Translations under genes and position numbers: made by a program | Shown: positions 11,952 through 13,827 of the stretch, in pieces | Layout: the number at the start of each line of letters is the position of its first letter | How positions within the stretch are numbered: position 1 is the stretch's first letter | The notes under the pieces: generated by a model | Told to the model about the DNA's origin: nothing | Database searches by the model: none | The model's input: the letters and a program-made list of their open reading frames with translations, nothing else | IMG/VR virus record: IMGVR_UViG_3300028844_002501 | Coordinates: 34,867-98,866 of that record | Length of the DNA: 64,000 bases | Direction: 5' to 3' (one strand) | DNA from: a virus

Positions 11952-11971
11952 AAAAAAATAAACAAAAACGC

Positions 11972-12000
11972 TTGACATTGATATATAGATATGATAGTAT
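11972..12000 (+). promoter_or_regulatory. Sigma70-type promoter of candidate RNA A
   Basis: TTGACA at 11972-11977, exactly 17 bp, TAGTAT at 11995-12000. The predicted start near 12007 leads into a hairpin-rich region with no good reading frame, closed by an intrinsic terminator. Confidence 0.75.
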
Positions 12001-12006
12001 ATAATA

Positions 12007-12178
12007 ATCAACGGGTACTTATGTCTCCTCTAAACCTCTCTCATCGACATAGTACTTGTTGCTTTACTCTCATTAAGTGAGAGTAGGTGGGTTAGACCTT
12101 AACGTACCACTGTAAAAAGCACAAAAAGGAAATGTAAGACGGGAAAACCTGGTAGTAGAAATACTATCGGGTTTTTTC
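12007..12178 (+). ncRNA. Candidate small noncoding RNA A (about 170 nt)
   Basis: The region between a consensus promoter and a strong intrinsic terminator has no credible reading frame. Predicted structure: a 16-bp 5' stem with one bulge pairing CAACGGGTAC/TATGTC (12009-12025) with GACATAGTACTTGTTG (12047-12062); a perfect 8-bp hairpin TACTCTCA/TGAGAGTA near 12068-12088; a GTTA/TAAC arm; then the terminator. It sits between a methyltransferase-like gene and a membrane-protein gene that has its own late promoter. The function is unknown. A structured leader is less likely because the terminator precedes the next gene. Confidence 0.6.
12144..12178 (+). terminator. Intrinsic terminator of RNA A
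   Basis: A 14-bp stem (AAAACCTGGTAGTA with TACTATCGGGTTTT, two G-T pairs) with a GAAA tetraloop, followed by a T run. Confidence 0.85.
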
Positions 12179-12181
12179 TTT

Positions 12182-12190
12182 ACTAAATAC
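12182..12190 (+). promoter_or_regulatory. Late promoter
   Basis: ACTAAATAC, a late-box variant also seen before gp18. Predicted start near 12195, 21 nt before the GTG of the membrane-protein gene. Confidence 0.55.
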
Positions 12191-12215
12191 TTATATCATA
12201 TGAGGGAGAATTGCA

Positions 12216-12467
12216 GTGTCACCGAAAACAATCGAAAGAGTAAAATGGCTCGCTACATTTATGTTTGTTTGTGCGGGAACACTCATATCTTTAAATCTAC
12301 CAGAATCTAAGTATGCATTCCCATTGTTTGCAACAGGACATTTGATTGCAATTTACGTTTTTGTGACATTGAGAGATAAACCACTAATTGTACAAAACAT
12401 ATTTTTCTTATGTATTGATGTGATAGGAATCTATCAGTGGCTAATAGCGCCTACACTTTCTTCTTAA
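12216..12467 (+). CDS. Small multi-pass membrane protein
   Basis: An 83-aa hydrophobic protein with a GTG start after GAGGGAGA. Three probable membrane helices are visible: residues about 10-27 (WLATFMFVCAGTLISL), 34-52 (AFPLFATGHLIAIYVFV) and 59-78 (IVQNIFFLCIDVIGIYQWL). I cannot name the family. The 3' end overlaps the convergent GIY-YIG gene by 17 bp. Its late promoter suggests expression with virion or lysis functions; a holin-like role is possible but unsupported. Confidence 0.65.
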   Translation: MSPKTIERVKWLATFMFVCAGTLISLNLPESKYAFPLFATGHLIAIYVFVTLRDKPLIVQNIFFLCIDVIGIYQWLIAPTLSS

Positions 12468-12888
12468 CGCTGTTTAGATACTCAGTAAGAATCTTAGAAC
12501 TTCCTACTCGTACATTGATAATACCATTATAGTACTCATCTGTCTCAAGCACTCTACGGTCAAATTGTTCTTTTGCTTCTACGTAACTTAGTGCGCCGCG
12601 ACTCGGGCAATAGTGTAGAATTTCACGTGAAAATTTATCGGGGCCTAATTTTTTTACATCCGCATTCAAATGGTCAGACGAACCCCAATAGGTTCTCCAA
12701 TCACTTTCTTTATAACCACGCCTTTTATTCTTTTTTCCTTTAAGAGGAGGTTTAGTGGTTTTAAATCTTGCTAACTTCTTACCTATGTATTTTCGGTCAT
12801 TTGTAAGATTCGTAATAAGATATACAAATCCCTCAACATTATCAGGTAATTCATTTACAACTTCATTGTTATATGTCCATTCACTCAT
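12451..12888 (-). CDS. GIY-YIG-like endonuclease-family protein
   Basis: A 145-aa protein of a type common in marine T4-like phages. The N-terminal GFVYLITNLTNDRKYIGKK (residues 20-38) is the GIY-YIG core, followed by SDWRTYWGS, LGPDKFSREIL and YVEAKEQFDRRVL with the family Arg and Glu. No DNA-binding tail is visible. Homing activity is possible, but the wide distribution of this short form suggests another nuclease role. It lies downstream of candidate RNA B on the same strand, with a weak ribosome site. Confidence 0.75.
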   Translation of the reverse strand: MSEWTYNNEVVNELPDNVEGFVYLITNLTNDRKYIGKKLARFKTTKPPLKGKKNKRRGYKESDWRTYWGSSDHLNADVKKLGPDKFSREILHYCPSRGALSYVEAKEQFDRRVLETDEYYNGIINVRVGSSKILTEYLNSVKKKV

Positions 12889-12892
12889 GGTA

Positions 12893-13543
12893 ATAATTAT
12901 TCCATACTTTAATAGGTCTAAAGACCTAATATCTTCGTAAATTTCTTTTCGCTTTGCTCAAAGAAGATTTCCTCGATATTTATTTCTTCCATATAATTAT
13001 ATATCAATATTATAAAATCATTATATTTTAATTACTTGTTCGGTTTGGAAGACACAATTGCCCATCCACTGGGCAACTGCAAATGAAACTTGTTCTTGCT
13101 CATCAGATTCTATGTCTAAGTTAGCCACTAGCAATGGCGAGGTCGGTTGACGATTCCCTCATAACTTAGTATTGCGTCTTTCGACTCAACGGCACCTCAA
13201 TTAGTCTACATAGAATAAAAATCTAATCGAAGTTGGTAGTGCTTTAAAACCTACCAGCGGTTTGTACATTTCTGTACGGTAAATACTAGTCATTCAATTA
13301 CCTTTAGAGTAACGAATGTTAAAATACGAAATATCTCTTTGTGGTTTACGAGAAGCAGTGTCGGATTTCACCCAACTTATCCGAACGTATGTATAATATA
13401 CGCCCTCAATCCCGAGTCGGCAACCCGACTAACAGTTCCACTATGTATTGCCTTATTAGAATCATTATTAGCCTTAATATCTTTAGATTTTGTATCAGAT
13501 TTGGGAATTTTTATTAGAATTATATCGATTTGTATTAGTTATG
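12893..13543 (-). ncRNA. Candidate large structured noncoding RNA B (500-650 nt)
   Basis: A consensus promoter on the minus strand reads into about 650 nt without a convincing gene. Hairpins are dense: 13415-13430 (AGTCGG/CCGACT), 13386-13402 (CGTAT/ATACG), 13361-13384 (TCGGAT/ATCCGA), 13291-13318, 13264-13277 (GTACA, GAAA loop), 13234-13256 (TGGTAG/CTACCA), 13176-13185 (GTC, GAAA loop) and 13058-13076 (TTGCCCA/TGGGCAA). The size, GNRA loops and phage location recall large ornate RNAs such as GOLLD or ROOL, but I cannot align it to either. No terminator precedes the GIY-YIG gene, so it could also be a long leader. Short frames of 24 and 35 codons exist inside (12918-12992, 13021-13128) without good ribosome sites. 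Confidence 0.5.
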
Positions 13544-13549
13544 TTGAAC

Positions 13550-13578
13550 ATACTAACATAGTGGAAAAGGGATGTCAA
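13550..13578 (-). promoter_or_regulatory. Sigma70-type promoter of candidate RNA B
   Basis: Minus strand: TTGACA (13578-13573), exactly 17 bp, TAGTAT (13555-13550). It begins 27 nt after the stop of the gp51-like gene. The -35, spacer length and -10 are the same as for RNA A. Confidence 0.75.
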
Positions 13579-13605
13579 CCTTTTTTGTAACTTTTTTTGT
13601 ATTTT

Positions 13606-13827
13606 TTATAAAATAGGTGTTCCAGCCTTCTTACTCAACTCAAAATTGTCTTTTACTATTTCGTTTAAGTGGCTTATATGAGTAACAGGCATTTCGTGGA
13701 GTTCTGATATACTGACGCCACCTCTCATATACCAAGTCAATTTCAGCAAGGATTTGTGTAGACTATCAAGTGATTTCTTATAAGACTCTTGTTTGTCCTG
13801 GATTTCTTTGCCGCTGGCAGTCTTCAA
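13606..13827 (-). CDS. gp51: Baseplate hub assembly/tail chaperone, gp51-like
   Basis: A 73-aa frame directly after gp26, in the -1 frame relative to it. The segment LTWYMRGGVSISELHEMP and the ending ELSKKAGTPIL resemble the small gp51-type hub assembly proteins of T4-like phages and the T half of G-GT tail chaperones. The only initiation codon at its 5' end is TTG at 13827, with no convincing Shine-Dalgarno sequence. A slippery heptamer and stem-loop at the junction suggest it is made mainly as a gp26-gp51 frameshift fusion of about 358 aa. It is far shorter than T4 gp51 (249 aa). Confidence 0.6.
   Translation of the reverse strand: MKTASGKEIQDKQESYKKSLDSLHKSLLKLTWYMRGGVSISELHEMPVTHISHLNEIVKDNFELSKKAGTPIL

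Follow-up and report, generated by a model that had tools for sequence, protein, structure and literature searches.

The best-known large ornate RNAs of phages, GOLLD and ROOL, form RNA-only cages whose function is unknown (PMC12286853), and phage ICP1 produces an abundant ~800-nt non-coding RNA whose length was likened by its authors to that of GOLLD and ROOL (PMC7567579). At the smaller end of the scale, phage-encoded base-pairing small RNAs (sRNAs) are known, such as PreS of lambda, which acts on host dnaN (PMC12197685). The anti-Shine-Dalgarno (aSD)-loop sRNAs of Rhizobiales are hairpin RNAs with CCUCCUCCC (PMC3927594), and Yfr1 carries the motif CACUCCUCACACC (PMC4734099). Here we analyze a stretch of 64,000 nucleotides (hereafter, the window) from a 98.9-kb viral record (IMG/VR record IMGVR_UViG_3300028844_002501, positions 34,867 to 98,866), in which we find an sRNA of about 170 nt (RNA A) and a large structured RNA of about 630 nt (RNA B) facing each other on opposite strands. 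Comparison with homologues indicates that, at the level of sequence and structure, both are almost certainly real RNA families; they are new, with no match in Rfam. The region had drawn attention in a prediction made from the letters of the sequence alone (the original prediction), which described two hairpin-rich, promoter-driven regions lacking a convincing gene.

RNA B has the following features, in coordinates of the window.
about 12911–13543, minus strand: RNA B, a large structured RNA of about 630 nt, supported by its fold, by covariation, and by distant homologues
13550–13578, minus strand: sigma70-type promoter, TTGACA-17-TAGTAT with TG before the −10 element, kept in close members
13454–13538, minus strand: CUAAUA array of the 5′ leader, with copies at 13454–13459, 13466–13471, 13512–13517, and 13533–13538
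13047–13445, minus strand: conserved structured core, supported by covariation
13186–13190, minus strand: 5′ strand of pseudoknot PK1, GUUGR, with R-Y covariation
13146–13150, minus strand: 3′ strand of PK1, YCAAC, in the apical loop of the hairpin UCG-YCAAC-CGA
13208–13215, minus strand: 5′ strand of pseudoknot PK2, UUCUAUGU
13108–13115, minus strand: 3′ strand of PK2, ACAUAGAA
12914–12927, minus strand: 3′ hairpin AGGUCUUUAGACCU, kept in close and distant members (as the variant GGUCUGUAAGACC in L028), and the probable 3′ boundary or terminator of RNA B

The hairpin-rich interval originally noted at 13058–13430 is there, with its two GAAA hairpins, but RNA B is longer than that interval. Folding of 12890–13546 (minus strand) gave a z score of −6.8 relative to dinucleotide shuffles, of which 0 of 20 did as well. 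The structure derived from 22 close sequences (alignment A2) comprises 103 pairs in 19 helices, two of which are pseudoknots; within this set, 99.9% of 2266 cells are paired and 15 pairs have changed on both sides. Double changes occupy 49 cells, compared with 12.1 in shuffled alignments (0 of 500 reaching the observed count) and at most 5 for slid structures, although these shuffles overstate independence because the alignment rows are related. The structure also held in seven distant phages that had not been used to derive it, in which 520 of 539 cells (96.5%) were paired. In a joint alignment, from which helices not alignable between the clades were excluded and in which PK2 was shifted by one base in two rows, 27 pairs showed double changes, amounting to 129 cells; 500 shuffles averaged 32.4 such cells and never exceeded 54.

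Compensatory changes extend to both pseudoknots. PK1 has G-C in 12 and A-U in 10 of the 22 close sequences, with GUUGR/YCAAC retained in distant phages, and PK2 changes from UCUAUGU/ACAUAGA to UCUGUUU/AAACAGA in distant phages by two double compensatory changes. The apical hairpin loop is mostly of the GNRA type (GAAA, GCAA, or GUAA across members), and the 5′ leader contains three to six copies of CUAAUA in 25 of 25 members, compared with 0.04–0.65 expected; across the window overall this hexamer is not enriched. A 20-mer of RNA B was found in 7 IMG/VR stretches and a pattern of its core in 53, one of which (L087) proved on alignment to be a chance match and was dropped. Many contigs are near-duplicates, such that the full-length set, with L087 set aside, corresponds to 20 clusters at 95% identity. 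Distant homologues were recovered with E values of 1e-17 to 5e-30, and, among host genomes, five pattern matches in genome contigs of unrelated taxa were taken as chance on the basis of taxonomy, without alignment to RNA B.

Two further observations concern RNA B. When we looked for targets by exact complementarity, only matches of 12–15 nt were returned, including one in which a 12-nt hairpin segment of RNA B (GCCATTGCTAGT) could pair around the start codon of a 164-amino-acid gene (MAGGTNVN...; position 72775 of G000, about 37909 of the window) in three of six records, which may be chance. In addition, a 73-amino-acid open reading frame (ORF) with a TTG start (13606–13827, minus strand), conserved in the group, lies between the baseplate hub gene and RNA B, and in distant phages the RNA B promoter-like sequences appear to fall inside its counterpart.

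RNA A lies on the other strand.
12007–12178, plus strand: RNA A, an sRNA of about 170 nt, supported by its fold and by close and distant homologues
11972–12000, plus strand: sigma70-type promoter, TTGACA-17-TAGTAT with TG before the −10 element, kept in homologous loci
12009–12061, plus strand: 5′ hairpin P1, which presents the conserved loop, supported by its fold and by covariation
12023–12042, plus strand: pyrimidine loop GTCTCCTCTAAACCTCTCTC, nearly invariant and unpaired in homologues and folds, the proposed seed
12144–12177, plus strand: intrinsic terminator, a 14-bp stem (12144–12157 with 12162–12175) followed by a T run

For RNA A the original prediction stood throughout: the promoter, the roughly 170 nt of paired sequence, and the 14-bp terminator were all as described, and RNA B indeed has the identical promoter layout on the opposite strand. 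Promoter-like sites are not enriched in the AT-rich window overall (15, compared with 17.4 in shuffles), and the support for these promoters therefore comes from their conservation in the close members of both families. Positions 12007–12185 fold to −59.5 kcal/mol (z −5.3 relative to dinucleotide shuffles, of which 0 of 200 were as good). The 18-nt loop CUCCUCUMAACCUCUCUC was found in 45 IMG/VR stretches, and because the close members were retrieved by this 18-mer itself, its invariance among them is to be read accordingly. All 25 distinct close members are predicted to fold as a 5′ hairpin with the 18-nt loop almost wholly unpaired, and they have a strong terminator and a variable middle portion, leaving the loop alone conserved. 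Covariation supports the stem, with 24 double-change cells compared with 8.4 after shuffling (0 of 500) among close members. A covariance model added 10 distant records, in most of which the loop differs by one A-to-C change; some of these loops are one or two bases shorter, and they sit on unrelated stems. RNA A thus has the sequence attributes of a trans-acting antisense sRNA: its own promoter, an intrinsic terminator, no coding sequence, and a conserved unpaired seed on a variable stem. The original prediction had looked to homologues for compensatory base changes, which appeared in both RNAs, and had named codon-like change without compensatory pairs as contrary evidence, which did not.

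The two RNAs are tightly linked. They were convergent and 1.0–2.6 kb apart in 52 of the 52 contigs in which both were found; the close contigs with both had them on opposite strands in 42 of 42 cases (35 at 1.0–1.14 kb and 7 at 2.1–2.4 kb), and in distant records they co-occurred in 10 of 10. Contigs with only one of the RNAs mostly end near that RNA, and none of them is a clean counter-example. In one respect the original prediction erred: the RNAs do not lie beside each other but converge, with two genes (12216–12467, plus strand, and 12451–12888, minus strand) between them. The closest relative, L005, shows mosaic divergence from positions 9001–17450 of the window (0–31% per 100 bp), the block that contains RNA B being ~99.5% identical and that of RNA A ~80%; this pattern suggests recombination.

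The window contains T4-like genes for the portal, baseplate hub, SbcC/SbcD, a late sigma factor, and a tail sheath stabiliser. Its closest portal proteins are those of Pseudomonas jumbo phage PA5oct and Agrobacterium phage Atu_ph07 (51–52% identity), and its gene order matches that of PA5oct (Arenbergviridae), gp55-SbcD-SbcC-...-hub-structural protein-portal. A cyanophage (Kyanoviridae) origin was initially suggested by matches to SegE genes only and was rejected on the portal and gene order. Because contigs of PA5oct-related phages carrying both RNAs reach 246 and 342 kb, the group has jumbo genomes. Judged by these comparisons, the two RNAs form a conserved module in a group of marine T4-like jumbo phages related to PA5oct. 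The RNA B model had no match in PA5oct or Atu_ph07.

The slot of RNA A and RNA B in PA5oct holds a promoter-driven region of ~980 nt (NC_071039.1 75831–76811, plus strand; equal to L099 6620–7600) with a fold z score of −6.1, which is present in 11 of 11 matching records of P. aeruginosa jumbo phages related to PA5oct and annotated there as tiny ORFs or nothing. It has no Rfam match at the family cut-off, it is unrelated to RNA B, and a ~130-nt module of it recurs at NC_071039.1 12900–13029 and 246155–246276 with 83–84% identity. The region is a possible analogue of the RNA A/B locus in a culturable system.

The loop of RNA A points to a candidate target elsewhere in the window.
41931–41950, minus strand: site complementary to the RNA A loop (17 of 20 positions match), in the ribosome-binding site of a late gene
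41229–41927, minus strand: proposed target gene, encoding a 232-amino-acid helical protein from a GTG start
41958–41964, minus strand: CTAAATA late-promoter-like motif, immediately 5′ of the target site

Apart from RNA A itself, the site is the only one in the window with three or fewer mismatches to the complement of the 20-nt loop (0 expected from shuffles); its upstream part is AGAGAAGUUU. The predicted duplex of −24.4 kcal/mol is the best of 54 gene starts, the next reaching −17.9, and only 1 of 200 shuffled loops attained this value. The pairing is kept in 8 of 8 homologues first found in phages with RNA A (−25 to −34 kcal/mol) and, when 80 homologous loci were compared, throughout the clade of at least 81% identity (L135–L152 and L162). 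Searching both strands of six records of the window's clade, we found the target to be the best non-self site in all six, at −24.4 to −33.8 kcal/mol, whereas the runner-up beyond RNA A reached −18.4 to −21.7. Apart from the target and RNA A, the records of 92 and 90 kb contain no further site within three mismatches.

The CTAAATA motif is similar to the late promoter of T4, and a late sigma factor is encoded by the phage. TAAATA-type motifs lie upstream of most target homologues. CTAAATA occurs 7 times in the window where 17.4 are expected, and none of 100 shuffles had fewer, a depletion that fits an avoided promoter motif. Its positions are 12183, 19287, 30350, 41958, 48671, 55065, and 60694. 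The target protein has no Pfam or PHROG family; it is predicted to be all helical (AlphaFold predicted local distance difference test score 83.7), its predicted fold has no PDB match with E ≤ 0.001, and it weakly resembles PA5oct gp323, whose place in the gene order matches. Directly 3′ of its gene is a manA RNA (RF01745, 56.7 bits; 40967–41172, minus strand).

We consider it fairly likely that RNA A pairs with ribosome-binding sites and, a shade less confidently, that the gene at 41229–41927 is a real target. RNA A would be a trans-acting sRNA whose transcription starts at a sigma70 promoter of the host type and stops at its intrinsic terminator, and its anti-Shine-Dalgarno-like pyrimidine loop would pair with ribosome-binding sites and thereby block translation. 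Its best target in the window's clade would be the leader of the late gene, whose 5′ UTR (untranslated region) would extend little beyond the pairing site because CTAAATA lies immediately 5′ of it. RNA A made early would then hold back a late protein, the order of early RNA A and late target being our inference. Because the loop is conserved beyond this clade, other targets must exist, which are probably host messenger RNAs (mRNAs).

Several observations weigh against the late gene as target. Its homologues in the distant clade (47–59% identical) lack extended pairing (−5 to −22 kcal/mol) even though the loop is almost unchanged, and five homologues at 73–83% identity pair weakly (−16 to −18 kcal/mol); a conserved phage target of the loop was sought in the distant genomes and none was found. 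Averaged across every gene start in the window, the loop is unremarkable, with 33 of 200 shuffled loops as good, and the Shine-Dalgarno sequence is itself part of the match. Moreover, close relatives share ancestry, and agreement among them is not independent. Because the distant clade conserves the loop without pairing to the target, the loop must be maintained by an older role, for instance one involving host mRNAs or a protein.

These same features (a loop conserved even where the homologous gene of distant phages does not pair with it, an unexceptional mean over all gene starts, and an SD-like GAGGAG that explains part of the match) speak for an alternative in which RNA A is only a generic Shine-Dalgarno (SD) mimic or acts on a protein or host mRNAs, and in which chance and shared ancestry explain why it matches the leader of the 232-amino-acid gene. 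That explanation is the strongest of the alternatives, and we regard it as a genuine if lesser possibility. It does not readily account for the target ranking first in six of six records by 3–13 kcal/mol, or for leaders that diverge while retaining the extended pairing, and the loop pairs at only −3.7 to −13.8 kcal/mol with other phage ribosome-binding sites, namely those of the structural protein, portal, and hub genes in many relatives. On balance, the best overall explanation appears to be a two-RNA module in which RNA A acts on the late-gene leader and RNA B has a structural or protein-binding role.

For RNA B, the pseudoknots and the conserved GNRA-type hairpin describe a large compact RNA that would play such a role, with the CUAAUA array as a putative repeated single-stranded protein-binding site. 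It may serve as a scaffold or as the RNA of a ribonucleoprotein, which is our best guess and is offered only tentatively. A different role is suggested by the gene that follows it.
12451–12888, minus strand: SegE-type GIY-YIG endonuclease gene, 3′ of RNA B (SegE_GIY-YIG, E 1.3e-35)

Wherever it could be read in close and distant phages, the start of a nuclease gene lies no more than tens of bases from the RNA B 3′ hairpin, as it might if RNA B were a cis-acting leader or partner of that gene. HEARO RNAs provide a precedent for RNAs linked to endonucleases. The type of nuclease nonetheless varies while RNA B stays: the gene is of the SegE GIY-YIG type in the close clade and some distant members and encodes a PDDEXK_15 or RusA-like nuclease in other distant members, and in PA5oct a RusA-like gene lies near the corresponding slot. 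On this evidence the nuclease can be exchanged while RNA B persists. A pseudoknotted RNA of 630 nt also exceeds what a translation switch needs, and assignment to the HEARO or OMEGA RNAs failed for want of an Rfam match and because the neighbor is GIY-YIG or PDDEXK rather than of the HNH/IscB type. We therefore consider a role as nuclease leader unlikely.

Two features 3′ of the RNA A terminator bear on whether RNA A might be a cis-acting leader, riboswitch, or attenuator.
12183–12189, plus strand: CTAAATA late-promoter-like motif, between the RNA A terminator and the PnuC-like ORF
12216–12467, plus strand: small PnuC-like membrane ORF, 3′ of RNA A in the close clade (weak match to NMN_transporter, E 6.4e-4, below the Pfam cut-off)

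In the close clade the terminator precedes a PnuC-like ORF of the same strand, an arrangement that favors regulation of this gene by RNA A. Such regulation is nevertheless quite improbable, given that a different gene replaces the PnuC-like ORF in the distant clade, leaving a riboswitch of a PnuC-type transporter gene without a fixed association; that a late-promoter-like motif separates terminator and ORF; and that in RNA A the middle is not conserved, only the loop. In distant loci L227, L228, L230, and L234, a 60–66-amino-acid ORF follows RNA A; the single one examined has a weak match to the RNA polymerase–binding domain of SutA (E 5.7e-5, below the cut-off).

Within RNA B the sole suggestive reading frame encodes 37 amino acids (13021–13134, minus strand) and in close relatives shows mostly synonymous or third-position changes. 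A peptide scan with this frame led to 37 wider loci, in which stops and indels cut it while the DNA remains conserved and the stems covary (for example, CCAUUGCUAGUGG becomes CCGUAACUAGCGG). By this comparison RNA B is non-coding, in keeping with the absence of a convincing gene noted originally for both RNAs. The same frame breaks ruled out a pair of exons with RNA B as the intron separating them, and there is scarcely any chance that it is a self-splicing intron or other mobile element carried by SegE: the adjoining homing-type nuclease and the exon-like frames of close relatives had suggested one, but RNA B is always in one place together with RNA A, and no group I or group II intron core of Rfam matched the region (E ≤ 5) or the homologous and distant loci.

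The linkage of the two RNAs admits a broader and more doubtful proposal, that they are parts of one RNA system in which a large ornate RNA, or a ribonucleoprotein assembled on CUAAUA, works only with its antisense sRNA, as an inseparable convergent pair across diverged jumbo phages that times late gene expression or redirects host translation. It is compatible with the data because co-occurrence in 52 of 52 contigs has no clean counter-example and because the nearly invariant loop has no conserved phage target in the distant clade. Whether or not the RNAs work together, structured RNAs evidently occupy stretches of phage genomes that look empty or seem to hold spurious small ORFs, and the module leads us to expect that jumbo phages control a late gene post-transcriptionally.

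How do these RNAs compare with described systems? With the covariance models of Rfam 15, neither RNA was matched in the window (gathering threshold) or in a scan of the region (E ≤ 5), as the original prediction had proposed to check; nor did 13 homologous loci yield a match, or 8 distant ones scanned at E ≤ 0.5. RNA A was likewise not matched by the Yfr1 family model. Yet RNA A resembles Yfr1 and the Rhizobiales aSD-loop sRNAs in its invariant, presumably unpaired anti-Shine-Dalgarno-like stretch on stems that vary, and Yfr1 also in its intrinsic terminator; unlike them, it is phage-encoded, has a single longer CUCCUCUMAACCUCUCUC loop, lacks an Rfam match, and is linked to RNA B. Like PreS of lambda, it is a phage sRNA thought to act through pairing, although its best candidate target is the phage's own late gene rather than host dnaN.

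RNA B and the ~800-nt RNA of ICP1, compared by description only, are both large non-coding phage RNAs; ICP1 is lytic and belongs to a different phage group. The guess that RNA B is GOLLD or ROOL was right as to kind and unsupported as to identity: RNA B is a large ornate RNA but, by sequence model, neither GOLLD (RF01998) nor ROOL (RF03087), both being unmatched in the window, region, homologous, or distant loci. That it is a diverged form of either is barely credible, since despite the similar size, GNRA-type loops, and phage origin no model matched close or distant members at permissive thresholds, and no transfer RNA (tRNA) gene, the usual neighbor of GOLLD, is nearby, the sole one in the window (60552–60628) lying 47 kb away. 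RNA B shares with GOLLD and ROOL its phage origin, a length of hundreds of nucleotides, and many helices with pseudoknots (PMC12286853), and the large size and pseudoknots expected of ROOL are present, PK1 and PK2 with compensatory changes. It differs in lacking a model match and a tRNA neighbor, in its CUAAUA array, and in its obligate sRNA neighbor. RNA B thus adds a further family to those whose functions are still open, one strongly backed by compensatory changes and obligately linked to an sRNA with a concrete candidate target, which provides a functional handle that the other families lack.

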